Shown in pieces: positions 1,662-18,481 of a stretch of 44,397 bases of DNA. The DNA is taken from positions 1-44,397 of the forward strand of contig JAPLPD010000167.1 of assembly GCA_026400395.1 (NCBI GenBank), in the 5' to 3' direction. The translations under genes were made by a program, and so were the position numbers. Position 1 is the stretch's first letter. The number at the start of each line of letters is the position of its first letter. This stretch comes from Alphaproteobacteria bacterium (lineage in GTDB: Bacteria; Pseudomonadota; Alphaproteobacteria; Rhizobiales; Xanthobacteraceae). The notes beneath the pieces are model-generated. The model was not told the origin of the DNA and did not search any database. It saw only the letters and a program-made list of their open reading frames with translations.

Positions 1662-2945
1662 TCACACCGTCACGTGTTCCTTGCCGGTCTGCACCACCAG
1701 CGCCTCTTTCGCCGCGTCCTTGAAATGCTTGTCCGGCGGAAGCACCACCGCGGCGGAACGCACATGCTGATGCGCGGCGACGATGCCGGGCGGCATGTCG
1801 CCGTTCTCCATCGTCTTCAGCGCGCGCAGCAGGCGATGCCGGGCCATGATGATGCCGTTGTCGGTCGAGACCAGGTTCTCCTTGGTGCGGTCGACGATCG
1901 GACCCATGCTCTCCTGCAGCGAGGCGTCCTGCATGGCGATGCCGAACACGCCGCTGAAGGTGCGGCCCTCCTTCTGCGCCTTGCGGTCGACCAGATAGTC
2001 GTTGGTCTTGTTGGCGGTGGGAATGTAGGTCCCCGGCACGTAGGCGACGTGGATGCCCTGGCCGGCTTCCATTGCCTTGCGCTCCTTGTCGGAGAGCGGG
2101 CGGGTGACCTTGTAGTCGAAGCTCCAGGCCCAGCAGTTTTCGTCGTCGATCGGCACCCAGAAGTGGCCGTGCACCGGATGGTCGGCGCGGGGCGGGATCA
2201 TGGTGAAGGCCGGCATCACATATTGTGTGACGCGCCAGTAGTAGTTGCCGTTCTCGGCGTTCCGCCGGGCGCCGATGTAGAGCCCGCCGGGGCTCTCGAC
2301 CACCTCGAAAACCGGCTTCATGTCGTTCATGTTGTACTGGTTGCCCTTGGAGCCCTTGAACAGTGGATCGCTGTTCAACTCCCCGGAATGCAGGAACGAG
2401 ACGTGGCTGGAATCGATGCCGCCCTCCATCGCCTGCAGCCAGTTGGATTCCTGCAGCCGCTTCGACATGAAGCTGTGGCTCGCCGGCACCATGGCGAATT
2501 CCCACTCCGGCAGCGGGGGCTGTTGCTCGGGCGGGCCCATGTAGGTCCACAGCACGCCGCCGCGCTCGACCAGCGGATAGGACTTCAGCTTGATCTTCTG
2601 ACAGTAGCCGCTCTCGCTCGGCTCGGACGGCACTTCGGTGCACTGGCCGGTGTGGTCGTATTTCCAGCCGTGATAGGGGCAGCGCAGGCCGCCGTGCTCG
2701 TTGCGGCCGAACCACAGCGACACGCCGCGGTGGGCGCAGAACTCGTCGGTCAGCGCGTAGTTGCCGTCGGTGTCGCGCCAGGCGAGCAGCCGTTCGCCCA
2801 GAAGCTTGACCCGCACCGGCGGGCATTCGTTCTCGGGGAGCTCCTCGGCCAGCAGGGCCGGTTGCCAGCTGGCCCGGAACATCCGGCCCATCGGGGTGCC
2901 GGGGCCGGTCTGGCAAAGGAGATCGTTCTGTTCTTTTCTGAGCAT
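1662..2945 (-). CDS. Rieske non-heme iron oxygenase, alpha subunit (phthalate dioxygenase-like)
   Basis: This 427-residue protein is the terminal oxygenase of a multicomponent ring-hydroxylating or O-demethylating system. The N-terminal Rieske domain has C70-x-H72 and C89-x2-H92, which bind a [2Fe-2S] cluster. The catalytic domain carries the mononuclear iron motif with D178, H181 and H186 in GGIDSSHVSFLH. This GGIDSSH form and the length match the phthalate 4,5-dioxygenase/carbazole-type group that works without a beta subunit. Such enzymes take electrons from a reductase and sometimes a separate ferredoxin; a Rieske ferredoxin is encoded divergently at 3123-3434, but no reductase is seen in the window. 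GGGAG lies upstream of the ATG. The true substrate is unknown; an aromatic carboxylate is a reasonable guess from the family. Confidence 0.92.
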   Translation of the reverse strand: MLRKEQNDLLCQTGPGTPMGRMFRASWQPALLAEELPENECPPVRVKLLGERLLAWRDTDGNYALTDEFCAHRGVSLWFGRNEHGGLRCPYHGWKYDHTGQCTEVPSEPSESGYCQKIKLKSYPLVERGGVLWTYMGPPEQQPPLPEWEFAMVPASHSFMSKRLQESNWLQAMEGGIDSSHVSFLHSGELNSDPLFKGSKGNQYNMNDMKPVFEVVESPGGLYIGARRNAENGNYYWRVTQYVMPAFTMIPPRADHPVHGHFWVPIDDENCWAWSFDYKVTRPLSDKERKAMEAGQGIHVAYVPGTYIPTANKTNDYLVDRKAQKEGRTFSGVFGIAMQDASLQESMGPIVDRTKENLVSTDNGIIMARHRLLRALKTMENGDMPPGIVAAHQHVRSAAVVLPPDKHFKDAAKEALVVQTGKEHVTV

Positions 2946-3104: not shown

Positions 3105-3122
3105 GTGAGAGAACCCGCCGCC

Positions 3123-3434
3123 GTGTCCACCAGAGTTGAACTTTGCAAGGCCGATGACATTGCCGAAGGAACCGCGATTCGCGTCGAGACGGCGGGTTTG
3201 ATTCTCGCGGTCTTTCATATCGAAGGCGCGTTCTACGTTACCGACGACACCTGCACGCACGGCCCGGGCTCGCTGTCGGAGGGCTTCATCGACGGCGACG
3301 TGGTCGAGTGCAACTTCCACAACGGCCAGTTCGACATCAAGACCGGCGAGATCGTTTCGCCGCCCTGCATGATCCCGGTGAAAATCTACCCCACCACGGT
3401 CGATGGCGGGGCGGTATTCATCGAAGTCGACTGA
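3123..3434 (+). CDS. Rieske [2Fe-2S] ferredoxin
   Basis: This is a protein of about 103 residues starting at GTG 3123; the in-frame GTG at 3105 would add six residues and is equally possible. It is a stand-alone Rieske domain with CTH (C-x-H) followed 17 residues later by CNFH (C-x2-H), the ligands of a Rieske [2Fe-2S] centre. Length and motif spacing match the ferredoxin components of non-heme iron oxygenase systems (NirD/BphF-like). It most likely passes electrons to the divergently encoded oxygenase at 1662-2945. It is soluble and cytoplasmic, with no signal peptide. No ferredoxin reductase gene is adjacent, so the electron input must come from elsewhere in the genome. Confidence 0.92.
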   Translation: MSTRVELCKADDIAEGTAIRVETAGLILAVFHIEGAFYVTDDTCTHGPGSLSEGFIDGDVVECNFHNGQFDIKTGEIVSPPCMIPVKIYPTTVDGGAVFIEVD

Positions 3435-3517: not shown

Positions 3518-4120
3518 ATGCACTCATTCGCCCGTCCCGCTTCGTTCGCCGCTCTGGTCGCCGCTGCGACTGTGGGCCTTACTTCCGCAGCGCTCGCGCA
3601 TGTGGGCGATCACTCGCACATGAGTTTCGCCGAAGGCTTGGCGCATCCGTTTACTGGCCTCGACCACATGCTGGCGATGGTGGCGGTCGGTCTCTGGGCC
3701 TCGCAACTCGGCGGCCGGGCGCTGTGGCTGTTGCCGCTGACATTCCCGGCGATCATGACGCTGGGCGCGGTGCTGGGCTTCGGCGGCGTGGCGTTGCCGT
3801 GGGTCGAGATCGGCATTACCGCTTCCGTGCTGGTGCTCGGCGCGGCGGTGGCGCTGACCTTGCGGCCGTCGCTTCTGGTCAGCCTGCCGCTGATCGCGCT
3901 GTTCGCGGCGCTGCACGGCTACAGCCACGGCGTCGAACTGCCGGCGAATGCATCCGCGCTGACCTATGCCGGCGGCTTCATTGTGGCGACCCTGGCGCTC
4001 CACCTGATCGGCATTGCTATCGGCTTCGCGGCCACCCGTATGCCGGTGCGGTTCGCCGCGCGTACGGCGGGCGGCGCGATTGCCGTGCTGGGTCTCGTCC
4101 TGCTGGTGACGCCGCACTAA
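3518..4120 (+). CDS. HupE/UreJ-family membrane protein
   Basis: This 200-residue protein has a signal peptide (residues 1-27, ending SAALA) followed by a histidine-rich segment (HVGDHSH) and about six membrane helices. The family signature HPFTGLDHMLAM lies at 43-54, and a second histidine motif, ALHGYSHG, lies near 130. HupE/UreJ proteins are proposed inner-membrane nickel or cobalt permeases, usually near hydrogenase or urease genes; none is present here. AGGGAA precedes the ATG by five bases. A metal-uptake role in this context is inference. One speculative reading is cobalt supply, since EutA and BluB nearby both relate to cobamides. The stop codon overlaps the end of the convergent eutA gene. 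Confidence 0.9.
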   Translation: MHSFARPASFAALVAAATVGLTSAALAHVGDHSHMSFAEGLAHPFTGLDHMLAMVAVGLWASQLGGRALWLLPLTFPAIMTLGAVLGFGGVALPWVEIGITASVLVLGAAVALTLRPSLLVSLPLIALFAALHGYSHGVELPANASALTYAGGFIVATLALHLIGIAIGFAATRMPVRFAARTAGGAIAVLGLVLLVTPH

Positions 4121-5613
4121 GGCTGCGTCGCGCTGCCCGGAAAAATCAGCGACTTGATCACCACCGGCACCGCGCCGGAGGCTTCCAGTATCGCGCCGAT
4201 GTCGATGTAGTCGAATTCCTTCAGCTCGAGGCCGTCGATCGACACCACCGCGTTGGTGAGCTTCATTTCCTCGTGCAGATGAATGCCGAGCAGACCGCCG
4301 ACGTCGCCGTCGCCGGCAAGCACCAGCGGATGTCCATTCGCCAGCACGGTGGCGAGTCCTTCGACCACGCCGTGGCAGAACGCATCGAGCCGCTGGAACG
4401 TCGCCGAGCCCTGCCACGGCACAAACAGGGCGACGGGCTGTTCGCCGCCATTGAGATCGAGCCGCTTGAGCATCGCCAGGGTGGCGCGCGCGACGGCGGC
4501 CGGATCGATAACCTCTCCATCGAGCGGCAGCGGCGGCGCGATCACCGGCACGTTGCGCAGCGGCACCGCGTCGAGCGGCGCGACGTAGATCGTGCTGCCG
4601 CTGAGCTGGATGGTGTATTGCGACGCACCGACCACGGTGGCGCGGATGCCTTCGAGCGATGGCTCCATCCGCGGGCAGAACGCATCGACGCGGGCGCGAA
4701 TTTCCGCCGCCAGCAGCGGGCCGAGATCGCCGAATTTCTTCGATTCATTGTCGTTAATGAACTCCGACACGCCGCCGGAAAACTGGATCTGCGCGATCGG
4801 GCGGCTTTGGGCGAGCGGGTCGGTGCGCAACAGGCTCACGCCCTGCGCCGTGGGCGTGCCGCCGCGCATGGTTTCGAACAGCTTGTCGGCCATCAGCCCC
4901 GCCAGCGCGCGGCCCTGGTCGAGCGTGAGCATTCCGCCCGGCCGCAGATCGAGGCCCAGTTCCAATCCGTAGCGCCGGCCGGCATCCTCGACGCGGGTGA
5001 TCTTGCCGTCCGGCTCGAGACAGATGAGCCGCGCGCCAACATCAACCGCGGCAATGTCGGTCACCTTGCCGTGGGCGCAGACCGCGATTTTCGACGTGCC
5101 GCCGCCAACATCGACGTTCATCACCACGCACTCGTCGCGGATCGAGCGCGCCGCCGCGCCTGAGCCGTAAGCCGCCATGACGGTCTCCAGGCTGTCTCCG
5201 GCGCTGACCGCGACGAGCTTACCCGCCTGCTTGGCAAACAACTCGCCGATGGCGCGGGCGTTCTTGCGCTGCACCGCCACGCCGGTGAGGATCAGCGCGC
5301 CGGTGTCGATCTCGTCGGGATCGACCTTGGCGTCGGAATATTCCTTGGCGATGAAGGCGCCAAGTGCTTCGGCGTCGATGGTGTTTTCGGCGGAATAGGG
5401 CGTCAGCAGGATGTCGGAGGCGTAGAAGGTCTCGCGCTGGGTGACGACGTACCGGCTGTCGAGCCGCTCCAGCACGATGCGCGAGAACACCAAATGCGAT
5501 GTCGACGAGCCGATATCGACGCCGACGCTGAGGACGACGATCTCATCTTCGCCCTCCAGCGAACGGCCGGCCGAGGAAAAGAAAACGCGGCCGCCTTGTT
5601 CGTCTTCGGTCAT
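4117..5613 (-). CDS. eutA: EutA-like reactivating factor (ethanolamine ammonia-lyase reactivase family)
   Basis: This 498-residue protein belongs to the ASKHA ATPase fold. The phosphate-1 motif VGVDIGSSTSH (30-40) and phosphate-2 motif NVDVGGGTSK (about 165-174) are both intact. EutA proteins exchange damaged adenosylcobalamin out of ethanolamine ammonia-lyase using ATP. Length and overall pattern fit the full family. It is an orphan here: no eutB, eutC or other eut gene is nearby. It may reactivate a lyase encoded elsewhere, or it may serve another B12-dependent enzyme. It is transcribed away from the binding-protein gene at 5696, with an 82 bp divergent gap, and overlaps the end of the HupE-like gene by 4 bp. 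Confidence 0.88.
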   Translation of the reverse strand: MTEDEQGGRVFFSSAGRSLEGEDEIVVLSVGVDIGSSTSHLVFSRIVLERLDSRYVVTQRETFYASDILLTPYSAENTIDAEALGAFIAKEYSDAKVDPDEIDTGALILTGVAVQRKNARAIGELFAKQAGKLVAVSAGDSLETVMAAYGSGAAARSIRDECVVMNVDVGGGTSKIAVCAHGKVTDIAAVDVGARLICLEPDGKITRVEDAGRRYGLELGLDLRPGGMLTLDQGRALAGLMADKLFETMRGGTPTAQGVSLLRTDPLAQSRPIAQIQFSGGVSEFINDNESKKFGDLGPLLAAEIRARVDAFCPRMEPSLEGIRATVVGASQYTIQLSGSTIYVAPLDAVPLRNVPVIAPPLPLDGEVIDPAAVARATLAMLKRLDLNGGEQPVALFVPWQGSATFQRLDAFCHGVVEGLATVLANGHPLVLAGDGDVGGLLGIHLHEEMKLTNAVVSIDGLELKEFDYIDIGAILEASGAVPVVIKSLIFPGSATQP

Positions 5614-5695: not shown

Positions 5696-6709
5696 ATGCG
5701 GTGGCTTGCGATCCTGTTGCCGGCGGTCGTTGCGGCGTGGCCTTCGGCGGCCATGAGTCAGCAATCGGTCGAAGAGTTCTATCGCGGTAAGAAGCTCGAC
5801 ATGATCATCGGCTATTCGCCGGGCGGCAGCTACGATCTCTACGCCCGGCTCGTGGCGCGCTATATCGGCAACTACATCCCTGGCAAACCGATCATCGTGC
5901 CGCGCAACATGCCGGGCGCAGGCTCCCGCGCCGCCGCCAACTGGGTCTACAACATCGCGCCGAAGGACGGCACGGTGCTGGCGACCGCCGATCAGTCGCT
6001 GTCCCTGCAGCAGGCGGCGGGCGACAAGCGCATCAATTTCGATACCACGAAGTTCCTCTACATCGGCAATCCGAACGTTGAGAACAACATCACCGCCGCC
6101 TGGCATACGTCGGGCATCAAGACCATCGATGACGCCAAGCAGCGGGAGGTGACGGTCGGCGCGACCGGAGGCTCGACGTCTTCGCAATATCCCAAGGCGA
6201 TGAACGCGCTGATCGGAACCAAATTCAAGATCGTGCTCGGCTATCCCGGCGGAAACGACGTGAACCTGGCGATGGAGCGCGGTGAGGTCGACGTTCGCGG
6301 ATCGAACAGCTGGACGTCGTTGAAGGCGACGCGGCCGGATTGGATTGTGGAGAAGAAGGTCAACATTCTGGTCCAGATCGGGCTCGCCAAGGCCCCCGAC
6401 CTGCCGGATGTGCCACTGCTCATGGATCTTGGCGCGAACGACGAAGACCGTCAGCTTCTGCGGGTTCTGTCGTCGTCCACGCACATCGGCCGGCCTATTT
6501 TTACCACGCCCAACGCGCCGGCCGATCGCGTCGCGGCGCTGCGAAAGGCGTTCGATGCGATGGTCCGCGATCCGGTGTTCATCGAGCAGGCGAAACGGGA
6601 AAAGTTCGATATCGAGCCGACCACAGGCGACGCGATGCAGCAGATCGTCACCGATATGATGGCGATTCCGAAAGGCCAGAGCGAACGGATGCGGCAGATC
6701 ATTGAATAG
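5696..6709 (+). CDS. Bug/TctC-family periplasmic solute-binding protein (1 of 5)
   Basis: This 337-residue exported protein has a signal peptide at about 1-21 (AAMSQ). The Bug-family N-terminal lobe motif appears in a divergent form, DMIIGYSPGGSYDLYAR, followed by the usual PGAGSRAAANWVY segment. These proteins bind organic acids or related small molecules for tripartite tricarboxylate transporters. It is more divergent than the four tandem copies at 10055-14100. It lies 18 bp before the class II aldolase gene, so the two are likely one transcript, which links the unknown ligand to the aldolase substrate. The ribosome binding site is weak. Confidence 0.9.
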   Translation: MRWLAILLPAVVAAWPSAAMSQQSVEEFYRGKKLDMIIGYSPGGSYDLYARLVARYIGNYIPGKPIIVPRNMPGAGSRAAANWVYNIAPKDGTVLATADQSLSLQQAAGDKRINFDTTKFLYIGNPNVENNITAAWHTSGIKTIDDAKQREVTVGATGGSTSSQYPKAMNALIGTKFKIVLGYPGGNDVNLAMERGEVDVRGSNSWTSLKATRPDWIVEKKVNILVQIGLAKAPDLPDVPLLMDLGANDEDRQLLRVLSSSTHIGRPIFTTPNAPADRVAALRKAFDAMVRDPVFIEQAKREKFDIEPTTGDAMQQIVTDMMAIPKGQSERMRQIIE

Positions 6710-6727: not shown

Positions 6728-7495
6728 ATGATGGCTCAGACTCAAAGCCGGGCAGCGAAAAGCAGCGCGGCAAAAGCATTGGAAAAGAATCTGCGCGAAC
6801 AGGTCGCCGCCTGCACGCTGTTGCTCAACGACCTTGGCCTGCTTGGCTACAGCGGCCACGTCAGCGCCCGGTTGCCGGGACGCGATGCATTCCTGATCCA
6901 GGCGTTCGACCAGAGCCGCGCGAGCCTCAAGCCAGACGATCTGTTGATTTGCGATTTCGATGGCCGGATGCTGGCGGGTCCAAAGGGAGTGCGGCCGCCG
7001 TCCGAGGTCTTCTTGCATTGCGAGATTCTGCGTGCGCGGCCGGACGTGAATTCGATCGCGCATTTCCATCACGAGCTGACGACGGTGTTCACGCTGATCG
7101 AAGGATTGGAGCTGAAGATCATCAAGAACCACGCGGTGCGCTGGACCAGCGGTATCCCTGTCCACGACGATCCCAGTCACGTCAGCGATCCGATGCTCGG
7201 CCGCGCGCTGGCCGAAACGCTCGGCCCGCACCATGCGCTGCTGATCCGCGCGCACGGACAGGTGATCACGGCGGAAAACGTGCCAGCCGCGCTGATCGAC
7301 AGCGTGCATTTCGTCGAGAACGCGGAGGTGATGTATCAGGCCGCGGCGCTCGGCAAGGTGATCCCGCTGAGCGGCCGGGAAATCCAGGGCTTCTTGCACG
7401 ACTTCGATCGCGACCGGCACATCGCGAAGCTGTGGAAATATTACGCCGGGATCGGCCGCGACAAAGGGCTGCTGCCGAAAACCTGGAAACTCTGA
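6728..7495 (+). CDS. Class II aldolase/adducin family protein
   Basis: This 255-residue protein has the fold of fuculose-phosphate aldolases and related decarboxylases. Probable zinc ligands are H112 and H114 in AHFHHE and H176 in IRAHGQV; the likely catalytic acid is E93 in PSEVFLH. The family cleaves carbon-carbon bonds in hydroxy-acyl or sugar-phosphate substrates or decarboxylates them. Lacking sugar-phosphate context, this copy probably acts on a product of the oxidative pathway around it; that is inference. Two adjacent ATGs (6728, 6731) are possible starts, with AGCAGGA upstream. The gene ends 3 bp before the end of the convergent bicupin gene. Confidence 0.9.
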   Translation: MMAQTQSRAAKSSAAKALEKNLREQVAACTLLLNDLGLLGYSGHVSARLPGRDAFLIQAFDQSRASLKPDDLLICDFDGRMLAGPKGVRPPSEVFLHCEILRARPDVNSIAHFHHELTTVFTLIEGLELKIIKNHAVRWTSGIPVHDDPSHVSDPMLGRALAETLGPHHALLIRAHGQVITAENVPAALIDSVHFVENAEVMYQAAALGKVIPLSGREIQGFLHDFDRDRHIAKLWKYYAGIGRDKGLLPKTWKL

Positions 7496-7498
7496 GAG

Positions 7499-8716
7499 CT
7501 ATTCCTTCGGGAGTTCGCCCTTGTAGTCGCGGTCGTAATATTCCGGCTTCATCCGATTCTGTGCGCCGTTTTGCGAGAGCATCCCGAGATACTCTTCCTT
7601 CAAATAGGGATCCTCCATCCAATACGGGATCGAACTGCCGCCCTCGTTGATGTCCATGCCGGTGTAGTCGATGTGCTTCTCGCCGGGCGGACCGGGTTCG
7701 CGCCCCGGATTGTGCGGGCCGAACCAGGCGGTGAGCCGCAACGGATCTTTCGACACGCCAAAGTGCTGGTGAAACCAGCGCGCCCCGCCGGGCGCGGCCG
7801 ACACCAGGCCGACGGGTTCGTAATCGACGCGCTTGACGAGATCGGCCTTGCCGTCCTTCCACGGATTTACGCCGGCGTGCTCAGGCCATGTGTACGTGTA
7901 ACCCTTGCCGCGCAGGCAAATCAGTACCGCCGCGGAGGTGTGCGCGTGCGCCTTGGAGTAGCGGCCGTTCTCATGCTGCGCTATCCAGAGATAGAAGGTG
8001 TTGCCGGTCATAAATGGTTCGATGCGGCGATAGCCAGGGGAGCGGCGGTTGTCGAGCGGCAGATCGCAGTTGACGATGTCCGGCACGAAGTTGGTGCGGC
8101 GCATGGCGAGGCCGCGCACCGGATCGGGCTCGATGTCATCCTTGTACTTGTAGAAATCGTCGGCGCCGGAAAACCGGTCGCGGAACTGGTACGGATTGTC
8201 GAAGATCGCGCCGACATTGTTGATAAGGTTCATCAGGTTTGGCGCGGTGGTGCCGGCGAGCAGCAACGCCGGCGCGGATGATGCGTTGACGATGCGATGC
8301 CAGGCGTTGACCGGGATCGAGAACAGCGAGCCCTTCTGCCATTCGAAGACGTGGCGCTTGGAATCGTTGTCGAGCCAGACCTCGGTGGTGCCGCGTCCTT
8401 CGACAACGAAATAGATCTCCTCGTAGATGTGCTTCTCGGGGTTCAGCGCGCCTGCGCCCGGCACCTCGATGACGTAGTTGCCCCATTTTCCTTCGGTGCC
8501 GTGCAGCTGGATGTAGCTGCCGCGGCCGCCGGTGCGCTTCCAGGGCGCCAGCGGCAGGTTCTGCACCTTGCTGATGCCGATGTCGCGGAACACCGGGATG
8601 CCTTCCGACTCCATGAAGTTGTCGTAGGGCGTCTTCGGCCGGCCGAACTTGCCGAACCCGGCCCGCTTGCCGCCGGTCGGCTCGTGCCAGTGCGTCGCGC
8701 CTGGGACGTCATGCAT
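7499..8716 (-). CDS. Bicupin protein A (gentisate dioxygenase-like fold)
   Basis: This is a 405-residue protein if started at ATG 8716. That start overlaps the stop of the upstream bicupin gene by 8 bp and gives the N-terminus MHDVPGATHWHEP, so translational coupling is likely. It has two cupin barrels. The first is around EKHIYEEIYFVVEGRG (94-109). The second has AHAH, with H257 and H259, and WFHQHF, with H316 and H318. The usual glutamate ligand of the first cupin motif is not seen in the second barrel, which leaves a possible three-histidine iron site. That arrangement is known in gentisate and salicylate dioxygenases. The reaction is unassigned; ring cleavage is a reasonable hypothesis given the Rieske and aldolase genes nearby. 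Confidence 0.85.
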   Translation of the reverse strand: MHDVPGATHWHEPTGGKRAGFGKFGRPKTPYDNFMESEGIPVFRDIGISKVQNLPLAPWKRTGGRGSYIQLHGTEGKWGNYVIEVPGAGALNPEKHIYEEIYFVVEGRGTTEVWLDNDSKRHVFEWQKGSLFSIPVNAWHRIVNASSAPALLLAGTTAPNLMNLINNVGAIFDNPYQFRDRFSGADDFYKYKDDIEPDPVRGLAMRRTNFVPDIVNCDLPLDNRRSPGYRRIEPFMTGNTFYLWIAQHENGRYSKAHAHTSAAVLICLRGKGYTYTWPEHAGVNPWKDGKADLVKRVDYEPVGLVSAAPGGARWFHQHFGVSKDPLRLTAWFGPHNPGREPGPPGEKHIDYTGMDINEGGSSIPYWMEDPYLKEEYLGMLSQNGAQNRMKPEYYDRDYKGELPKE

Positions 8717-9848
8717 GAGCCTTCTCCTCTTCCTCGACCTTAACCGGCTGATCGACCCTCTCGGCGGCATAAGCCTTGTCCATCGCCGACTTCAGGCCGT
8801 GCTTGGCGAGCTCCTGCTCGAAGTCCTTGCGGGTCTCCGGATTCTCGTCGGAGTAGTCGATCTGGTCGCCGCCGAGCCGCTTGCTGATCCAGGCCTTCGG
8901 CACGCCCTGGGCGTTGCGGATGGCGACGCCCTCGTGCTTGAAGGCGAGATAGCGCGCCGGCGTGGTGCCGGTGTTGAAATGCTGATGTAGCCACATGTTC
9001 GGCGGCACGATCATGGTGCCGACCTCCCACTTGTAATAGCGCGGCTTGTCGCCCTCCGGCCACATCAGCGAATAGCCTTCGCCGGACAGGATGATGACGT
9101 GGGCGCCTGGTCCGTGGGCGTGCGCCTTCTTGTAGGTGCCGATCGGGAATTGCGAGATGTGGCTGTTCAGCGACGACTTTGCGAAGTTGAAGCGGATGTG
9201 GCCGCCGCCGGCGCCGCGCTCCTTCGCCGTGATCAGCGGCAGGTTGACCGCGTCCGGCACGAAGTTGGTCGCCAGCATGAAGCCCTTGGTCTCGTCCTTG
9301 GCGGAGAAGTAGTCCGGTTCGCCGTTGAATCGGCCCTTGAAGTCGTACTTGGTGCCGAAGATGAAATCCAAGTCCTCGTAGAGGTTGATCACGATCGGCG
9401 CGTTGGTGACCGAAACAAAACGCGCGGGCTCGCGGCCCGAGCCATTAAAGTGCTGGTGCAGGCAGTTGAGCGGAATCGCAAACAGCGCGCCGGCCTTCCA
9501 TTCGAAGGTGATGCGCTGGCCGGCGTCGTTCCACACGGTGGTGGAGCCGCGCCCGCTCAGGATCATGATGGTTTCTTCGAACAACTGCCGTTGCGGGCTG
9601 AGTGTCTTGCCCGGCGGGATCTCGCAGACGTAGCAATCGTTCGAGGTGCGTGATGCCTCATGGTTCATGAAAACGCCGCGTCCGCCGCGCCGCGCCCAGG
9701 GCTTCAACTCGACGGTGTTCAGATTCTGCACATAAGTCGAGCTGATGAGGTCGAGCCCCTCGCTCTTCACCCAGCGGGTGTAGGGCGTCTCTTTTTCCGA
9801 GGCGAATTTCTTGGCGAACTCGTCCGAAACGATGGCGTCCTTGGCCAT
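8709..9848 (-). CDS. Bicupin protein B (gentisate dioxygenase-like fold)
   Basis: This 379-residue protein is related to bicupin A and lies directly upstream in the same operon. Barrel 1 covers about residues 75-150, with QLFEETIMILSGRG and CLHQHF (H131, H133). Barrel 2 covers about 230-305, with KAHAHGPGAH (H243, H245, H250) and WLHQHF (H288, H290). The first barrel lacks the HxH pair, so metal binding is expected mainly in the second. The C-terminal tail is charged (EEEEKAHA). Two unequal paralogues in one coupled unit suggest a heteromeric enzyme or two successive steps. GGAG precedes the ATG. The promoter would lie in 9849-10054, shared with the binding-protein operon. Confidence 0.85.
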   Translation of the reverse strand: MAKDAIVSDEFAKKFASEKETPYTRWVKSEGLDLISSTYVQNLNTVELKPWARRGGRGVFMNHEASRTSNDCYVCEIPPGKTLSPQRQLFEETIMILSGRGSTTVWNDAGQRITFEWKAGALFAIPLNCLHQHFNGSGREPARFVSVTNAPIVINLYEDLDFIFGTKYDFKGRFNGEPDYFSAKDETKGFMLATNFVPDAVNLPLITAKERGAGGGHIRFNFAKSSLNSHISQFPIGTYKKAHAHGPGAHVIILSGEGYSLMWPEGDKPRYYKWEVGTMIVPPNMWLHQHFNTGTTPARYLAFKHEGVAIRNAQGVPKAWISKRLGGDQIDYSDENPETRKDFEQELAKHGLKSAMDKAYAAERVDQPVKVEEEEKAHA

Positions 9849-10054: not shown

Positions 10055-11038
10055 ATGATGAGGGATACCGCCAATAAGCTCGCCGCGATTCTGTTTGGCG
10101 TGCTGGCCATGGGCTTGCCGGCGTCGTTGGCGTCCGCCCAGAATTACCCGTCCCGCAACATCACGGCGATCATTCCGTTCGCGGCGGGCAATGCCAACGA
10201 CATCACCTCCCGTATCGTGCTCGAGCAGGTCGGCCGGCAGATGGGCCAGGCGGTCATCATCGACAATCGCGGCGGCGCGGGCGGCACCATCGGCGTCGGC
10301 CAGGCGGCGCGAGCGGCGCCGGATGGTTACACGATCCTGTTCCATTCGGCATCGTTCAGCTCCGCCTATGTGACGCACAAGGCGCTGCCCTACGACACCT
10401 TCAAGGATTTTATCGCGGTGGCGCCGGCCGGCATTTCGCCGAGCGTGCTCGTTGTCTCGCCGTTGAAGGGCTACAAGAACGCCGGCGAGCTGATCGCGGC
10501 GGCCAAGGCAAAACCCGGCGAGATGAATTTCGCCTCCGCCGGCATCGGCGCGGCCTCGCATCTGGCGGCGGAAAAATTCAATGTCGCCGCCGGCATCAAG
10601 TCGCAGCATGTGCCGTTCAAGGGCCCGGTCGAAGCCTTGACCGAGGTGATGACCGGCCGCATCGATTACTACTTCCTGCCGATCGCGCCGGCGCTGGCGC
10701 TGATCAAGGACGGCAAGGTCACGGCGCTGGCGGTGAGTTCGAGCACGCGCGCGGCCTCGCTGCCGGACGTGCCGACGGTCGCGGAGATCGGCTTGCCCAA
10801 GGCGGCCTATGCTTTCTGGAACGGCGTTTTCGTTCCGGCCAAGACCCCATTGGATATCGTCACCAGGCTGCACGACGAGACCCAGAAGGCCGTCGCCGAC
10901 GCGAGCGTGAAGGAGCGGTTTGCCAAGCTCGGCATCGTTCCGATGACGATGACGCAACCGGAGTTCCAGAAATACTTCGAAGACGACGTCAAGGACACCG
11001 ACGCGCTCGCCAAGGCGGCAGGTATCGAGAGGCAGTAG
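10055..11038 (+). CDS. Bug/TctC-family solute-binding protein (2 of 5)
   Basis: This 327-residue protein starts at ATG 10055, set by GAGGAA six bases upstream. An open frame extends further upstream but has no signal peptide. Residues 1-28 are a signal peptide (SLASAQ). The mature N-terminus YPSRNITAIIPFAAGNAND matches the Bug ligand-binding loop, followed by IDNRGGAGGTIGVGQ. It is the first of four tandem binding-protein genes with short gaps, likely a single operon with the hydrolase and TctAB. The periplasmic receptor would deliver a carboxylated or aromatic ligand to TctAB. Confidence 0.92.
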   Translation: MMRDTANKLAAILFGVLAMGLPASLASAQNYPSRNITAIIPFAAGNANDITSRIVLEQVGRQMGQAVIIDNRGGAGGTIGVGQAARAAPDGYTILFHSASFSSAYVTHKALPYDTFKDFIAVAPAGISPSVLVVSPLKGYKNAGELIAAAKAKPGEMNFASAGIGAASHLAAEKFNVAAGIKSQHVPFKGPVEALTEVMTGRIDYYFLPIAPALALIKDGKVTALAVSSSTRAASLPDVPTVAEIGLPKAAYAFWNGVFVPAKTPLDIVTRLHDETQKAVADASVKERFAKLGIVPMTMTQPEFQKYFEDDVKDTDALAKAAGIERQ

Positions 11039-11088
11039 CGCGACTGCTGGACAAAAGTCTGCACGGCATCAAGGCGGCGTAGAACGAC

Positions 11089-12072
11089 ATGATGCGATTG
11101 ATCGCAGCGTTGCTGTCGGCGGGTGGCCTCCTGGCCGCCGCGTGCGGCGGCGCGGCGGCCCAACAGGATGCGGCGAAAAACTGGCCGTCGAAGCCGATCC
11201 ACGCCGTGGTGCCGCTCGCGCCCGGCACCGGCGGCGACGTTATGGCGCGGCTGATGCTCAATCAGCTCGCGCTGCAACTCGGCCAGTCGATCGTGATCGA
11301 GAACAAGGGCGGCGCTGGCGGTACACTCGGCGTCGCGCAGGTGGCGAAGTCCGATCCGGACGGCTACACGCTGCTGGCGCATTCATCGACGCACGTTATT
11401 TCGCCAGCCATGTATACCAGCCTGCCGTATGACACCGCCGGTGACTTCGCCGGCGTGATGCCGATCGGTAGCGTGCCAAGTGCGCTGGTGGCGGCGCCGT
11501 CGAAGGGCATCAGAAATCTCAAGGACTTCGTTGAAAAGGCCAAGGCCACGCCTGGCGGCTTTACCTATGCGTCGGCCGGCGTAGGATCGACCACCCACCT
11601 CACTGCGGAACGGTTTCGCCTGAGCGCCGGTTTCCCCGCGATTCATGTGCCGTTTCGCGGCGGCGGCTTCCAGCCCGAAATCATCGCCGGCCGTGTCGAC
11701 TTCGCCTATTCGCCGATCGCGACCTCGCTGCCGAACATCAAGGACGGACGCCTCCAGGCGGTCGCGGTGTCGAGCCCGCAGCGCGCGGCGGCGTTGCCGG
11801 ATGTGCCGACCACATTGGAGGCTGGCTATGCGGACTCCGATTACGTGATCTGGGTCGGGCTGTTTTTTCCGGCGAAGACGCCGCGGGCGATCGTCGACAG
11901 GCTGAACCTCGAAATGAAGAAAGCGTGGGAGAATCCAGCCCTGCGTGAAAGGTTTGCCGGACTCGATGTCACCCCGATGCCGATGACGGCGGCCGAGTTC
12001 GACGTTCTGATCAAAAAGGAAATTGCCGCCAACGCCGTGCTGGCCAAGGCGGCCGGGCTGCAACCGAATTGA
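11089..12072 (+). CDS. Bug/TctC-family solute-binding protein (3 of 5)
   Basis: This 327-residue protein has an N-terminal signal peptide (about 1-25, ending GGAAAQ). WPSKPIHAVVPLAPGTGGD and ENKGGAGGTLGVAQ mark the Bug family. It is closest in appearance to copy 2 (PGTGGD/PGNAND loops, FPAKTP near the C-terminal lobe). It lies 50 bp after the previous gene and 28 bp before the next. The different loop residues at the binding cleft compared with its neighbours suggest a different ligand preference, which is inference from the alignment of motifs by eye. Confidence 0.92.
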   Translation: MMRLIAALLSAGGLLAAACGGAAAQQDAAKNWPSKPIHAVVPLAPGTGGDVMARLMLNQLALQLGQSIVIENKGGAGGTLGVAQVAKSDPDGYTLLAHSSTHVISPAMYTSLPYDTAGDFAGVMPIGSVPSALVAAPSKGIRNLKDFVEKAKATPGGFTYASAGVGSTTHLTAERFRLSAGFPAIHVPFRGGGFQPEIIAGRVDFAYSPIATSLPNIKDGRLQAVAVSSPQRAAALPDVPTTLEAGYADSDYVIWVGLFFPAKTPRAIVDRLNLEMKKAWENPALRERFAGLDVTPMPMTAAEFDVLIKKEIAANAVLAKAAGLQPN

Positions 12073-12100
12073 AGTCTGCATGAACGCACGGAGAAACCAG

Positions 12101-13087
12101 ATGACGCGAATGACATGGCTGTTGCTGTCCGCGCTCGCGCTGACCGCCGCGGGTCCCGCGGTGGCGCAGGACAAGTATCCGTCGAAGCCTGTGAAGATTC
12201 TGGTGCCCTACGCGCCGGGCGGCGGCACCGACATCACCGCGCGTCTGTTCGGCGATCAACTCAAGAACAGCCTCGGCCAGCAGTTTGTGATCGAAAACAA
12301 ACCGGGCGCCTTCGGCATCCTCGCCATCGAAGAAATGGCGCGCGCCAAGCCGGATGGCTACACGCTGATGATCGGCAACGTCTCGACCAATGCTATCACG
12401 CCGGTGCTGTTCAAGAACAAGTTCAAGATCGACTTCGAGAAAGAAGTGCAGTCGGTCGCCCGCTTCAACATCTATCCGTCGTTTCTGATTGCCACGACGA
12501 CCAACTTCGACGTGAAAGACGTGAACGATCTGGTCGCTCAGGCGAAGAAGAGTCCGGGCAAGGTCCGCTATACCAGCGCCGGCGTGGGCTCCTTTCCGCA
12601 TTTCGACATGGAGATTTTCGCCCGGCGGGCCGGGGTCGAGATGAATCACATTCCGAACAAGGCCGGCGCCGCCGGCATGCTCAACGATCTGGTGGTCGGC
12701 GATGCCCAGGTGGCGATCATCAATTCGGCGTCCTCGGCGGCGATGATCAAGGCCGGCAAGCTGAAGCCGCTCGCGGTGGTCGCGGAGCAGCGGGTGGCGG
12801 GCTACCCCGACGTGCCGACGATGACAGAGGCGGGCTTCAAGAGCGTTGGCACGCTGCACTGGCAGAGCATGCTGGCGCCGGCGGCGACGCCGAAGCCGGT
12901 GATCGACACACTGTTCAAGGCAATCGTCGAGGCGTCGAAGCAGCCCGCGCTCAAGGAGGCGTTCGACAAGCAGCTCGTCAGCCTCAAGGTCAGCGAATCG
13001 CCGGATGAGGCGAAAACCTGGCTCGCGGGCGAACTCGATTCGTGGCGCAAGATCACGTCCGAGGTGAAGATCGATCTGGCTGAGTAG
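12101..13087 (+). CDS. Bug/TctC-family solute-binding protein (4 of 5)
   Basis: This 328-residue protein starts at ATG 12101, with GGAGAA at a normal distance; upstream in-frame ATGs at 12023 and 12080 would spoil the signal peptide (TAAGPAVAQ). The mature start DKYPSKPVKILVPYAPGGG is a standard Bug N-terminus. It shares KPGAFGILAIEEM with copy 5 and is clearly its nearest paralogue. That pair probably arose by a tandem duplication separate from copies 2 and 3. Confidence 0.92.
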   Translation: MTRMTWLLLSALALTAAGPAVAQDKYPSKPVKILVPYAPGGGTDITARLFGDQLKNSLGQQFVIENKPGAFGILAIEEMARAKPDGYTLMIGNVSTNAITPVLFKNKFKIDFEKEVQSVARFNIYPSFLIATTTNFDVKDVNDLVAQAKKSPGKVRYTSAGVGSFPHFDMEIFARRAGVEMNHIPNKAGAAGMLNDLVVGDAQVAIINSASSAAMIKAGKLKPLAVVAEQRVAGYPDVPTMTEAGFKSVGTLHWQSMLAPAATPKPVIDTLFKAIVEASKQPALKEAFDKQLVSLKVSESPDEAKTWLAGELDSWRKITSEVKIDLAE

Positions 13088-13116
13088 GTTGCCACGCGGA
13101 CAGGGAGCAGACACAC

Positions 13117-14100
13117 ATGAAACGCATCAGCTTGGCTTTGTTGTCCATGGTTGCGGCGGGTTTTGCCTCGTCCGCATACGCGCAGGACAAGTATCCTTCG
13201 AAGCCGATCAAGGTCGAGGTGCCGTTCGGCGCCGGCAGTGCGACCGATATCGTCATCCGCATCGTTGGCGATCAGATGCGCCACGAACTCGGCCAGCAGA
13301 TCGTGGTGGAGAACAAGCCGGGCGCGTTCGGCATTCTTGCCATCGAGGAAATGGTGAAGGCGCGTGCCGACGGCTACACGCTGATGGTCGGCAATCCCGG
13401 CACAAACGTGCTGACGCCGATTATCTACAAGGACAAGTTCAAGATCGATTACGACAAAGAGGTCGTGATGGTGTCGCGGCTCGGCGAGGTGCCGCTGATC
13501 CTTTGCGCCACCACCAAGGACTTCGCGCCCAGGACCTATGCCGAGTTCATAGCGTTGGCCAAAACCAATCCCGGCAAGGTGCGTTATGCCAGCGTCGGCG
13601 TCGGTAGCAACAACCACTACGACACTGAAGCGTTTGCGCAATGGGCGGGTCTCGAACTCGTTCACATTCCCAACAAGGGCGGCGGCGCGGCGATCACCAA
13701 TGACCTGGTGTCGGGCGATGCACAGGTGGCCCTGGTCAACGCGGCAAGCTCGGCCGGCGTGATCAAGGGCGGACTGCTCAAGGTGCTCGCGGTCATGGCC
13801 GACGAGCGGATGGCGGAATATCCGGACGCGCCGACGCTGAAGGAATTGGGCTACGCCAATGGTAAGGGCCTGTGGTCCGCGCTCTACGCGCCGGCTAAGA
13901 CAGCTCCGGACGTGCTCGACACCATCCACAAGGGAACGGTGGCGGCGTTGAAGTCCGCCCCGGTGCAGGATGCGTTCAAGAAGCAGATGATCAAGGCGGT
14001 GCCGAACGCCTCGATTGCCGATGCTGCCAAATGGAATGCGGCCGAGACGGCGTACTGGAAGAAGCTCACAGAACAGGTGAAGGTCGAACGGCCGGAGTGA
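13117..14100 (+). CDS. Bug/TctC-family solute-binding protein (5 of 5)
   Basis: This 327-residue protein has a signal peptide (about 1-22, SSAYAQ) and mature start DKYPSKPIKVEVPFGAG. It shares long stretches with copy 4, for example KPGAFGILAIEEM and the SSA..IK segment, so the two are a recent duplication by appearance. A start codon preceded by AGGGAGCAG gives a good ribosome binding site. It lies 16 bp before the CocE-type hydrolase gene, tying the ligand to an ester or amide that the hydrolase would cleave. That functional link is inference. Confidence 0.92.
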   Translation: MKRISLALLSMVAAGFASSAYAQDKYPSKPIKVEVPFGAGSATDIVIRIVGDQMRHELGQQIVVENKPGAFGILAIEEMVKARADGYTLMVGNPGTNVLTPIIYKDKFKIDYDKEVVMVSRLGEVPLILCATTKDFAPRTYAEFIALAKTNPGKVRYASVGVGSNNHYDTEAFAQWAGLELVHIPNKGGGAAITNDLVSGDAQVALVNAASSAGVIKGGLLKVLAVMADERMAEYPDAPTLKELGYANGKGLWSALYAPAKTAPDVLDTIHKGTVAALKSAPVQDAFKKQMIKAVPNASIADAAKWNAAETAYWKKLTEQVKVERPE

Positions 14101-14116
14101 TTTGGAAGATCCAACG

Positions 14117-15805
14117 ATGAACATCGAAGTGAAGCCGTCCGACACCGCCCACAAGCTCAAGATCGAGCGAGACGTCGATGTGCCGATGCGTGACGGCGCC
14201 CGGCTGAAGGCCGATGTGTTCCGCCCCGACGACGGCGGGAAATTCCCGGCGCTGCTCAATCTCGGGCCGTACCAGAAGGACAAGCTCTGGGTGCCGCCGG
14301 CGCAGCTTGCAGAAAAAGCCACGCCCAACATGAATTGGGAAACCGTCACTCCGGAATGGTGGGTGCCGCGGGGTTACGCCGCGGTTCGCGTCGACGGCCG
14401 TGGCAGCGGCAAGTCTCCTGGCCAATGTGAGCCGTGGTCGCTGGCCGAGGCGATCGACTTCTACGACGCCATCGAATGGGCCGCGGCGCAGCCCTGGTGC
14501 AACGGCAAGGTCGGGCTGTCGGGCATTTCCTACTTCGCCATCAACCAGTGGTTTGTCGCCAACCTGCAGCCGCCGTCGCTGAAGGCGATCATCCCGTGGG
14601 AAGGATTCGCCGACATCTACCGTGACGCGCTGTTCCACGGCGGCATCCTGAGCGTGTTCATGACCAACTGGATCACCGCGCACACCATGCATCACGTCAT
14701 GGGCCGGGCGGCGCAGCTCAATCCGGATGGCTGGCAGGTCAATACGATGTGGCACTGGATGCATCACAACCTGGACAGTGGCGTGTTGCGCGGTTCGCAG
14801 GCGCAGTGGGATCGGATCACCGTGCCGATGCTCTCGGTCGGCAACTGGACCGGCTTCGCTCTGCATCTGCGCGGCAATACTGAGGCGTATATGCGCGCTG
14901 CCTCGAAGCATAAGAAGCTCCGCATCCACAACGGCTCGCATGTGCATCCGTTCTACACAGACGAGGGCAAGCGCGATCAGCTTCGCTTCTTCGATCACTG
15001 GCTCAAGGGCATCGACAACGGTGTGATGGACGAACCGCCGGTGAAGCTCGCGATTCGCAAGGGTAGGGACGAGATCGAGTGGCGCGACGAGCACGAATGG
15101 CCGCTCGCGCGCACGCAATGGACCAAGTTCTACTTCGACATTTCGGCGGCGGCTTCCGGCAAGGAACCGCGCGTGGGCGGTCTGGCGAAGGAGAAGCCGG
15201 CGAAGGCGAGTGCCTGCACCTATCCGGCGTTCAATCTCGGCACCATGGGCTCGACCTCGGCGGCGTCGTCGCAGGTGATGGGCGGCGGCATAAAGCCGGG
15301 CATGGGTATCGCACTTTCCACGCCGCCGCTCGCCGACGATGTCGAGGTCACCGGCCCGCTCGCCGCGACGTTTTATGTGTCGAGCGACAGCGAGGATATG
15401 GACCTGTTCCTGACGCTCCGGAATTTCGACGCGGAGGGGAACGAAATCCTGGAAACCGGCCAGCAGGGCTCCCCCGTTCCGGTAGCGAAGGGTTGGCTGC
15501 GCGCGTCGCATCGCGAACTCGACGAACAACTGTCGCTGCCGTACCGGCCCTATCACAAGCACACGCGGCGGCTGTTCCTGAAGCCCGGCGAGATCGTCAA
15601 AGTCGATGTGGAGATATGGCCGACGTCGATGACGTTTCGGAAGGGCCATCGCATCCAGCTCGATGTGCAGCCCCGTGACGGTGTCGGCAGCCAGTCGTAC
15701 CTGCACTATCATGCCGACTACAACACCGGCTCGAACACCATCTACGCGGGCGGCGAATACGAGTCGTATCTGCTTCTGCCGGTGATTCCGAAAACGGGTG
15801 GATGA
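14117..15805 (+). CDS. CocE/NonD-family hydrolase (X-Pro dipeptidyl-peptidase S15 type)
   Basis: This 562-residue alpha/beta hydrolase starts at ATG 14117, with GGAAG eight bases upstream. Domain order follows cocaine esterase: N-terminal catalytic domain with VRVDGRGSGKS (91-100) and nucleophile S138 in LSGISYF, a cap with the DALFHGG segment, a catalytic His region at NGSHVHPF, and a C-terminal jelly-roll domain. There is no signal peptide, so it acts in the cytoplasm. The family hydrolyses acyl esters or peptides. Placed between binding-protein and tctB genes, it probably processes the imported compound; the substrate is unknown. Confidence 0.9.
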   Translation: MNIEVKPSDTAHKLKIERDVDVPMRDGARLKADVFRPDDGGKFPALLNLGPYQKDKLWVPPAQLAEKATPNMNWETVTPEWWVPRGYAAVRVDGRGSGKSPGQCEPWSLAEAIDFYDAIEWAAAQPWCNGKVGLSGISYFAINQWFVANLQPPSLKAIIPWEGFADIYRDALFHGGILSVFMTNWITAHTMHHVMGRAAQLNPDGWQVNTMWHWMHHNLDSGVLRGSQAQWDRITVPMLSVGNWTGFALHLRGNTEAYMRAASKHKKLRIHNGSHVHPFYTDEGKRDQLRFFDHWLKGIDNGVMDEPPVKLAIRKGRDEIEWRDEHEWPLARTQWTKFYFDISAAASGKEPRVGGLAKEKPAKASACTYPAFNLGTMGSTSAASSQVMGGGIKPGMGIALSTPPLADDVEVTGPLAATFYVSSDSEDMDLFLTLRNFDAEGNEILETGQQGSPVPVAKGWLRASHRELDEQLSLPYRPYHKHTRRLFLKPGEIVKVDVEIWPTSMTFRKGHRIQLDVQPRDGVGSQSYLHYHADYNTGSNTIYAGGEYESYLLLPVIPKTGG

Positions 15806-15874
15806 TATGCGGATACCAGTGTTCGGCATCGCCGGAGCCACAGTCCGTTGCGTGGCAGCTTGCAGACAACTTTC

Positions 15875-16363
15875 ATGAGCAATACGCAGCCCCCAGCCAA
15901 ACAGCCGGCGTGGGACATTCTGGCCCGCGCCGACGTGCTGTCGGGGCTGCTGTTTGTCGCCATCGCCGCCTTCGGGCTGTGGGCGTCGCGGAACTATCCG
16001 GTCGGCACGGCGCTGCGCATGGGCACCGGCTACATGCCGCGGCTGCTGTGCTAGCTGCTACTCGGCCTGGGCGTTATCGTCCTGGCGCAGGGTTTACGGC
16101 AGCCGTCGGCACCGCTGCGCACATCGACGCAGGGGTGGCGCGCGATGCTGTCGGTGACCGTGGGCCTCATCGCGTTTGCCTTGAGCATCGAGCGGCTGGG
16201 CCTCGTCCTCGCCATCGCGCTGCTCACCGGCATCGGTGCGCTGGCGACGCGGGCGCTGCGGCCCCTGGAGACCGCGATTGCCGGGCTTGTTCTGATCGCG
16301 ATGTCATGGAGCATCTTCATCGTCGGGCTGGGGCTCACCATCCCGATCTGGCCCGAGTGGTAG
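15875..16363 (+). pseudogene. tctB: TctB small membrane subunit with an in-frame TAG
   Basis: The reading frame encodes a TctB-like protein of about 161 residues with four membrane helices, but codon 60 is TAG (16052-16054) in RLLC-stop-LLLGLGV. The frame is open and well conserved on both sides, ending at TAG 16361-16363, 3 bp before tctA. A single TGG to TAG change would explain it, since tryptophan fits the helix here. TctB is needed with TctA for transport, so the break would disable the system unless the stop is suppressed or is a sequence error. The ribosome binding site is weak; the start at 15875 is chosen because the TctB helix 1 follows at the normal distance. Confidence 0.85.
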
Positions 16364-16366
16364 GGC

Positions 16367-17863
16367 ATGGAGTTCTTTGACAACCTCGCCGTGGGATTTG
16401 GCGTTGCCCTGACGCCTGCCAACCTCGGCTTCGCATTTGTCGGCGCCATGGTCGGCACGCTGATCGGTGTGCTGCCCGGCATCGGACCGATTGCGACCAT
16501 CGCCATGCTGCTGCCGCTGACCTTCCACTTGGAGCCGGTGTCGGGCCTGATCATGCTGGCTGGCATCTTCTACGGCGCGCAGTACGGCGGCTCGACCACC
16601 GCGATCCTGGTCAACCTGCCGGGCGAAACGTCGTCGGTGGTGACCTGCATCGACGGCCACCAAATGGCGCGTCAGGGCCGCGCCGGCGCGGCGCTGGCGG
16701 TGGCGGCGATCGCTTCATTTTTCGCCGGCAGCATTTCGACCGCGCTGCTTGCCGGCTTTGCGCCGCCGCTCGCCAAGATCGGCCAGTCGTTCGGCGCACC
16801 CGAGTATTTTTCGCTAATGCTGCTTGGGTTGATCGCCGCGGTGGTGCTGGCGCACGGCTCGGTGGTGAAGGCGGTGGCGATGATCGTGCTGGGGCTGCTG
16901 GTCGGGCTGGTCGGCTCTGACGGCAACACCGGCGGCACCCGCTTCACCTTCGACATTCGCGAACTGACCGACGGCATCGACGTTGCCACGCTGGCGATCG
17001 GACTGTTCGGCGTTGGCGAAATCATCGCGAATCTGGCGCGGCCCGCCGAGGAGCGCTCGCTGGTGGCGCAGAAAATCACCCGGCTGTGGCCGACCGGCGA
17101 TGACTTCCGCCGCTGCTGGCCGGCGGTGCTGCGCGGCACGGCGCTCGGATCGATCCTCGGCGTCTTGCCGGGCGGTGGCGCGACGCTGAGTTCGTTCGCG
17201 GCCTATGCGCTCGAAAAGAAGGTTTCCACCGAGCCGTCCCGCTTCGGGCGCGGCGCGGTCGAGGGCGTGGCCGCGCCGGAATCTGCCAACAACGCGGGCG
17301 CGCAAACCTCGTTCATTCCAATGCTCACGCTCGGCATTCCCGGCAACGCGGTGATGGCGCTGATGATCGGCGCGCTGACCATCCACGGCATCCAGCCCGG
17401 CCCACAGATCATGTCGGAACGCCCGCAGTTGTTCTGGGGCATGGTCGCCTCCATGTGGATCGGCAACCTGATGCTGGTGATCATCAACCTGCCGCTGATC
17501 GGCATCTGGGTTCAGCTGCTGAAGGTGCCGTACCGCTTCCTTTATCTGGCGATCTTGTTGTTCTGCGGCATCGGCGTCTACACCGTGGGCAACAGCGCGG
17601 CGGCGGTTCTGCTGGCAGCCTTCTTCGGCGTGGTGGGCTTTATCCTCATGAAGCTCGACTGCGAGCCGGCGCCGATGATACTGGGATTCGTGCTGGGACC
17701 GCTAATGGAAGAGAACCTGCGCCGCGCCATGAAAATCGCGAGCGGGGACCCGATGATCTTTGTGCAGCGGCCAATCAGCCTGGGACTTTTGATAGCAGCG
17801 GCGCTATTGCTCCTGATCGTTGCGCTGCCGGCCATCCGCGGCAAGCGCGAGGAAGTCTTCTAG
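16367..17863 (+). CDS. tctA: TctA-family large membrane subunit of a tripartite tricarboxylate transporter
   Basis: This 498-residue, very hydrophobic protein has about 11-12 helices. The family motifs GVLPGIGPIATIAML (about 37-51) and YGGSTTAILVNLPGE (about 65-79), and a second related copy, GVLPGGGAT, in the C-terminal half, reflect the internal duplication of TctA. TctA moves the substrate delivered by a Bug/TctC protein across the inner membrane using the ion gradient. It follows tctB by 3 bp in one operon with at least four binding-protein genes. The gene itself looks intact, although tctB is broken. Confidence 0.93.
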   Translation: MEFFDNLAVGFGVALTPANLGFAFVGAMVGTLIGVLPGIGPIATIAMLLPLTFHLEPVSGLIMLAGIFYGAQYGGSTTAILVNLPGETSSVVTCIDGHQMARQGRAGAALAVAAIASFFAGSISTALLAGFAPPLAKIGQSFGAPEYFSLMLLGLIAAVVLAHGSVVKAVAMIVLGLLVGLVGSDGNTGGTRFTFDIRELTDGIDVATLAIGLFGVGEIIANLARPAEERSLVAQKITRLWPTGDDFRRCWPAVLRGTALGSILGVLPGGGATLSSFAAYALEKKVSTEPSRFGRGAVEGVAAPESANNAGAQTSFIPMLTLGIPGNAVMALMIGALTIHGIQPGPQIMSERPQLFWGMVASMWIGNLMLVIINLPLIGIWVQLLKVPYRFLYLAILLFCGIGVYTVGNSAAAVLLAAFFGVVGFILMKLDCEPAPMILGFVLGPLMEENLRRAMKIASGDPMIFVQRPISLGLLIAAALLLLIVALPAIRGKREEVF

Positions 17864-17874
17864 GAAGGGTGAGC

Positions 17875-18481
17875 ATGGTGTTCGACGACGCCTTTCGCGC
17901 AAAGCTCCGCGAGCTTTTCGTCTGGCGCCGCGACGTCCGGCGCTTTCGTGCCGACCCCTTGCCGGCGGGCACGCTGGAGCGGCTGATCGAACTCGCTTGC
18001 CTCGCCCCGTCCGTGGGACTCAGCCAGCCCTGGCGCTTCGTGATCGTCGAGGACGCTGTCCGCCGCCGGGCCGTGCTGGAGAATTTCCAGGCGGCCAACG
18101 CGGAGGCGCTGAATTCCTATGCGGGGGATCTGGCCGCGCGCTATGCCGAGTTGAAACTCGCGGGTCTGCGGGAGGCGCCGTGCCAGCTCGCGATCTTCGC
18201 CGACCCGGCCACCGACACCGGGCATGGCCTTGGCCGGCGGACCATGCCGGAGATGGCGGAATACTCGGTGGTCGCCGCGATCGGCACCCTGTGGCTGGCA
18301 GCGCGAGCCGAAGGCATCGGCCTGGGCTGGGTTTCCATTTTGACCCCAGCCGATATCAATACGCTGCTCGACGTTCCCGCGACGTGGCGCTTGATCGGAG
18401 TCCGATGAGATCAGCCCCGAGCTGGAACGCGCCGGATGGGAGCATCGCCAGGCCGCGGGCGCGTTCGTCCTTCGCCGCTGA
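17875..18481 (+). pseudogene. bluB: BluB (5,6-dimethylbenzimidazole synthase) with a C-terminal deletion and frameshift
   Basis: The frame from ATG 17875 (AGGAAGGGTGAG upstream) encodes 177 residues of a BluB-type nitroreductase: VWRRDVRRF near the start, APSVGLSQPWRF for flavin contact, and GLGWVSI. It then ends early at TGA 18406-18408 after WRLIGVR. The expected C-terminus, ESDEISPELERAGWEHRQ, continues in another frame up to TGA 18479-18481. The YLC-GYP block normally between the two parts is missing, so about 30 bases with length not divisible by three were lost near 18397. BluB makes the lower ligand of cobalamin from reduced flavin. The lost part usually helps complete the fold, so this copy is probably inactive. 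It follows tctA by 11 bp. Confidence 0.85.

Follow-up and report, generated by a model that had tools for sequence, protein, structure and literature searches.

A bicupin pair with an invariant three-histidine site co-occurs with EutA-like ATPases in a probable aromatic-acid catabolic island of Xanthobacteraceae

What do two adjacent, unequal cupin genes in an alphaproteobacterial genome encode, and do their products belong to one enzyme? The window, that is, the whole stretch of DNA that we analyzed, is a contig of 44,397 nucleotides (JAPLPD010000167.1, assembly GCA_026400395.1) from a member of the Xanthobacteraceae. Among named assemblies, those nearest to this genome carry the labels Rhodoplanes piscinae and Xanthobacteraceae. 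On the minus strand, the gene for bicupin A (positions 8709 to 9848; 379 amino acids) is followed by that for bicupin B (7499 to 8716; 405 amino acids). The end of A and the start of B share an 8-bp stop/start overlap, ATGCATGA (8709 to 8716, minus strand), with a GAGGAG run upstream. An alternative B frame extending to 8770 would encode 423 amino acids; both gene calling and N-terminal conservation favor the start at 8716. The two proteins are 34% identical over nearly their full length (E = 1.6 × 10−49), which is far above chance level, and single-barrel profile comparison identifies them as collinear paralogues. These coordinates and this identity confirm what a sequence-only reading had claimed, namely two unequal bicupin paralogues with overlapping genes. 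The overlap is conserved in 5 of 10 junctions read from near relatives, the other five having a spacer, and A and B are non-adjacent in most other genera.

Both proteins match Pfam Cupin_2, and their AlphaFold2 models (pLDDT of 87.7 for A and 82.6 for B) both show two barrels. The second barrel carries an HAH motif (residues 243/245 of A and 257/259 of B) and an HQHF motif (288 to 291 and 316 to 319, respectively). The predicted site therein consists of His243, His245, and His288, together with His290, in A, and of His257, His259, and His316, together with His318, in B. We compared 128 distinct relatives (90 A, 14 close A paralogues, 22 B, and 2 of a third bicupin type, M, that is ~40% identical to A). 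All four histidines are invariant (128 of 128), and the position of the canonical cupin Glu is occupied by Ala in A, B, and 126 relatives and by Phe in the two M proteins. The retention of HxH and HQHF without the canonical Glu, first noted for A and B, thus extends to the whole set of relatives. Because the histidines are invariant and the Glu is replaced across relatives, the predicted three-His site is genuine as a sequence feature and is one of the best conserved in the family. Each bicupin very probably binds one catalytic metal via three His residues of its C-terminal barrel. The first barrel is degenerate, with mostly Gln-x-Gln in A and Glu-x-His in B; among relatives, its Glu is conserved and its motif-2 His mostly so.

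Structure comparison places both models closest to aromatic-acid dioxygenases. Foldseek ranked oxalate decarboxylase and MncA first and also favored seed globulins, with TM scores below 0.55. After re-alignment with VIA-align, the top match for both models was salicylate 1,2-dioxygenase (2phd; Z = 20.8, rmsd 3.5, 256 aligned residues for A; Z = 20.6, rmsd 5.2, 271 aligned residues for B). The gentisate 1,2-dioxygenase GDOsp (3bu7) scored 20.5 and 19.9 for the two models, and oxalate decarboxylase scored 19.2 to 19.4, ~1.2 to 1.4 units below the top. Our fold call is based on VIA Z scores and site residues rather than on Foldseek order. Note that the margin over oxalate decarboxylase is small, and the site residues therefore weigh more.

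Those residues agree well with the three-His iron dioxygenases. Salicylate and gentisate dioxygenases hold their metal on three His, and in the former the substrate carboxylate is bound by His162, the second His of motif 2 (PMC10306065). With these enzymes (2phd and 3bu7), A and B have in common the bicupin fold, HxH, Ala in place of Glu, the motif-2 HxH, and an aromatic-acid setting. However, they are only 11 to 15% identical to them in the structure alignments, and the equivalent of Arg127 of salicylate dioxygenase is absent, being Val or Leu in A and B. GDOsp, from Silicibacter (Ruegeria) pomeroyi, has ferrous sites in both barrels (PMC10306065), whereas A and B have lost HxH from the first. 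Its C-terminal barrel (KAHRHT...WHEHCNT) resembles KAHAH...HQHFNT of A and B and aligns by sequence to the A profile (whole-sequence E = 3 × 10−5). Canonical gentisate dioxygenases of related genomes have the same layout as A and B (HxH and HDH, with Ala at the Glu position), but in the opposite barrel: their HxH lies at about residues 111 to 127, in the N-terminal barrel, compared with 243 and 257 in the C-terminal barrel of A and B. Furthermore, a whole-genome scan with TIGR02272 (gentisate 1,2-dioxygenase) matched neither A nor B at E ≤ 0.001. The failed family model and the opposite location of the site together rule out membership of the gentisate dioxygenases. The proposed three-His dioxygenase therefore stands in part: residue conservation, structure match, and aromatic neighborhood support it well, but the gentisate dioxygenase identity does not hold. 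Phosphoglucose isomerase and auxin-binding protein were also rejected as identities, their sequence matches being weak and confined to a single barrel, with the motif Glu absent. The same genome has an unusually large set of nine TIGR02272 matches (e.g., on contigs C93, C32, and C368), two of which are above the cut-off.

The genes around the pair support a role in aromatic-acid catabolism. A Rieske oxygenase with a LigXa-like C-terminal domain lies at 1662 to 2945 (minus strand; Pfam Rieske, and LigXa_C at 1e-36) and a Rieske-type ferredoxin at 3105 to 3434 (plus strand; Pfam Rieske, 1e-17). At 1139 to 1624 is a protein of ~165 amino acids with no Pfam match; at least 14 related loci likewise have it after their Rieske oxygenase. 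Next to B, on the plus strand, are a TctC (Bug)-type solute-binding protein (5696 to 6709), assigned by similarity to neighboring TctC genes and conserved beside the module, and a class II aldolase/decarboxylase family protein (6728 to 7495; Pfam Aldolase_II, 1.3e-30). Beyond A, a tripartite tricarboxylate transport block (10055 to 17863, plus strand), comprising four solute-binding proteins, a CocE-type hydrolase, and TctA, is a probable substrate uptake system. Across 79 related loci, the bicupins' neighbors are EutA-like proteins (50 loci), ABC transport (40), monocupins (35), Rieske oxygenases (24), and IclR regulators (21). Ferredoxin reductase, UbiD, CobW, and a 328–amino acid protein also occur; we read the last, which matched no family model, as similar to 4,5-dihydroxyphthalate decarboxylase. 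In three near relatives, B is followed on its own strand by a gene for an Amidohydro_2 protein. LigXa-type Rieske oxygenase, ferredoxin, decarboxylase-like genes, and IclR thus make up a setting indicative of aromatic-acid breakdown, and no complete pathway for a ring-fission product was recognized.

The monocupins of the wider islands are often adjacent pairs. In single-barrel profile comparisons, the first barrel of A is nearest, after B, to one of these monocupins; its second barrel is similar to both, slightly more so to the partner monocupin than to the first one. Another contig of the window's own genome (C292, 4408 to 5585) has such a pair, one member with three His and the other with HRH and Glu; genes for a PdxA-family dehydrogenase, a TPP enzyme, TctC, and an IclR regulator lie nearby. 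It is possibly a split version of the bicupin. A family of ~135 amino acids that starts MCGE(L/I) and has no Pfam match lies beside monocupins in eight related loci (e.g., L060, 9830 to 10237; L051, 10639 to 11046).

More surprising than the pair itself is an ATPase partner that the sequence-only reading had missed. An EutA-like ATPase of the class that partners B, EutA1, is encoded at 4117 to 5613, on the same minus strand as A and B. We surveyed 198 genomes of the same family, defining EutA-like proteins by Pfam PF06277 (E ≤ 1e-50). Orthologues of A are present in 30 genomes (in one as fragments), and B is present in the same 30. EutA-like proteins occur in 33: all 30 bicupin A/B genomes and three others, of which one has only an M-type bicupin, one belongs to the same genus and is incomplete, and one has a true EutA beside EutB. 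The association between bicupins and EutA-like proteins (Fisher's exact test, P = 3 × 10−34) is between related genomes of one family, and the P value overstates the independent evidence because they share ancestry. EutB does not track these proteins: 98 of the 198 genomes encode it, but among the 33 genomes with EutA-like proteins, only 8 do. In a phylum-wide sample of 398 genomes, B was found only in the window's own genome, and thus the bicupin family is patchily distributed.

The EutA-like proteins also pair with particular bicupins. Grouped by same-strand partner, EutA1 accompanies B (27 cases), EutA2 accompanies A (53), and EutA3 accompanies M (11), with one exception. A maximum-likelihood tree separates EutA1, EutA2, and EutA3 with starred support, and the branch leading to Escherichia coli EutA is very long. 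The cultured Phyllobacterium zundukense shows the same pairs, M with an EutA and, near a Rieske oxygenase, a ferredoxin, and IclR, B with an EutA. EutA1 of the window passes the Pfam EutA model (369 bits; cut-off, 27) and scores 310 bits against the NCBIfam EutA equivalog (cut-off, 598), likewise falling below the other models. None of the three EutA-like proteins tested comes near the NCBIfam EutA equivalog cut-offs. EutA-like proteins share with EutA, the reactivase of ethanolamine ammonia-lyase, the Pfam family and the actin-type ATPase fold family; unlike true EutA, they track bicupins rather than EutB, and the partner of A has a His/Asp-rich tail. We rejected EutA1 as the reactivase of the genome's own EutB, because the EutB gene lies on a different contig and because, across genomes, EutB does not go together with EutA-like proteins. 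On its contig (C246, 6652 to 8836), EutB is succeeded by a gene whose position suggests EutC; the stretch read contains no EutA-like gene. A second EutA-like protein of the same genome (C132, 8381 to 10072) has a His/Asp-rich N-terminus and no adjacent bicupin; its relatives adjoin A. We found no published link between EutA and bicupins in the literature on EutA, cupins, Rieske oxygenases, and dihydroxyphthalate decarboxylase. Since the ATPase is present wherever the bicupins occur, we suggest that it loads or repairs them, although EutA-like proteins could instead serve another target in the island.

Which metal would be handled is a separate matter. The sequence-only reading had named iron; the three-His site fits, but iron itself was an assumption, and the neighborhood points to nickel or cobalt as serious alternatives. 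A HupE/UreJ-type nickel/cobalt permease (3518 to 4120, plus strand; Pfam HupE_UreJ, 6.9e-57) overlaps the EutA1 gene by 4 bp. In eight genomes of four genera, no more than 300 bp separate HupE from an EutA-like gene (no more than 2 kb in 10 genomes), and HupE/UreJ proteins occur near monocupins in Betaproteobacteria. NikR and a NixA/HoxN nickel transporter directly adjoin B-EutA in Phyllobacterium. CobW-type GTPases are found in six loci, and the one that was fully read contains runs such as HHHHHDHDH (L055, 12226 to 13284, between an IclR regulator and a ferredoxin gene). The EutA2 N-terminus, ~61 residues averaging 6.9 His and 15.7 Asp plus Glu (e.g., DHDHDHDDF), is a further candidate metal-binding feature; EutA1 has no such tail. 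NicO transporters are uninformative as a marker, because 183 of the 198 genomes have one.

These observations allow several readings of the locus to be weighed. The bicupins could be nickel or cobalt enzymes served by EutA-like metallochaperones rather than by iron reactivases. The transporters, NikR, the GTPases, and the acidic His-rich tail all argue for this, and nickel cupins are known (PMC4416304). However, these transporters are absent from most loci over the stretch read, HupE and NicO proteins are widespread in the family, the HupE gene of the window is convergent with EutA1 and so not co-transcribed with it, and cobalt might equally supply cobalamin synthesis. We therefore hold this reading only tentatively. 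A single heteromeric dioxygenase requiring both chains, which the pairing had suggested, is likewise possible but doubtful. Co-occurrence of A and B is perfect, and half of the close junctions overlap; hydroquinone 1,2-dioxygenase (HqdAB, PnpCD type) is similarly built of two different cupin chains from neighboring genes. That enzyme, however, has its functional metal site, a 2-His-1-Glu site, in only one subunit (PMC10306065), whereas A and B are full bicupins with a complete three-His site in each chain. They also lie apart in most other genera, each beside its own EutA-like gene, which makes the case for a heteromer weaker than proposed.

Two further readings change the chemistry or the role of the ATPase. 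Rather than oxygenases, the bicupins may be metal-dependent decarboxylases, lyases, or isomerases acting on an acidic intermediate, consistent with the structural proximity of oxalate decarboxylase and the weak sequence matches to cupin phosphoglucose isomerase. Both of these enzymes use the motif Glu, as a ligand in the retained site, but here that position is Ala or Phe in all 128 relatives, and the neighboring genes encode oxygenases; we consider such an activity unlikely. More improbable still, in our view, is that the EutA-like proteins continue to serve cobalamin enzymes and are linked to the bicupins only through co-inheritance of one mobile catabolic island. Every EutA-like protein passes the Pfam EutA model, and BluB, the 5,6-dimethylbenzimidazole synthase of cobalamin synthesis, is encoded directly after TctA (17875 to 18408). 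The distribution of EutB and the low equivalog scores argue against this reading, as do the distinct EutA clades beside distinct bicupin types on different contigs.

In the reading that we favor, and to which we give about an even chance of being correct, the two bicupins are metal-dependent enzymes encoded in an island for aromatic-acid catabolism, and dedicated EutA-like ATPases maintain their metal. Gene layout, site residues, fold match, co-occurrence, and the pairing of subtypes are observations, whereas catalysis, the metal, the substrate, and the role of the ATPase are inferred. The Rieske oxygenase would hydroxylate or demethylate a carboxylated aromatic compound, the product of which A and B may bind via its hydroxyl and carboxylate groups. 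With the metal of their C-terminal barrels, they would most likely use O2 to open or oxygenate the carboxylated, hydroxylated ring. EutA1 for B, and EutA2 for A, would probably load, remove, or renew the metal after oxidative damage. There is precedent for such damage, as hydroquinone dioxygenase, of the cupin class, loses activity in air and regains it with fresh Fe(II) and ascorbate (PMC3222310). EutA removes damaged cobalamin from ethanolamine ammonia-lyase (PMC5821096), and by analogy, the EutA-like proteins probably have a comparable role. A bolder version is that an EutA-descended ATPase with a metal-binding tail delivers or renews nickel or cobalt in a ring-opening three-His bicupin; we regard this as rather unlikely. 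If true, it would represent a cupin-oxygenase maturation system unlike any that we found described, and many genes labelled as ethanolamine ammonia-lyase reactivase would need reassignment.

To our knowledge, cupin dioxygenases are generally assumed to need no help in acquiring their metal. If each bicupin class does have an ATPase of its own, that would reveal a maintenance system for these enzymes and correct a common EutA annotation. The island itself is a probable, so far unassigned, route of aromatic-acid catabolism in soil and freshwater Alpha- and Betaproteobacteria.
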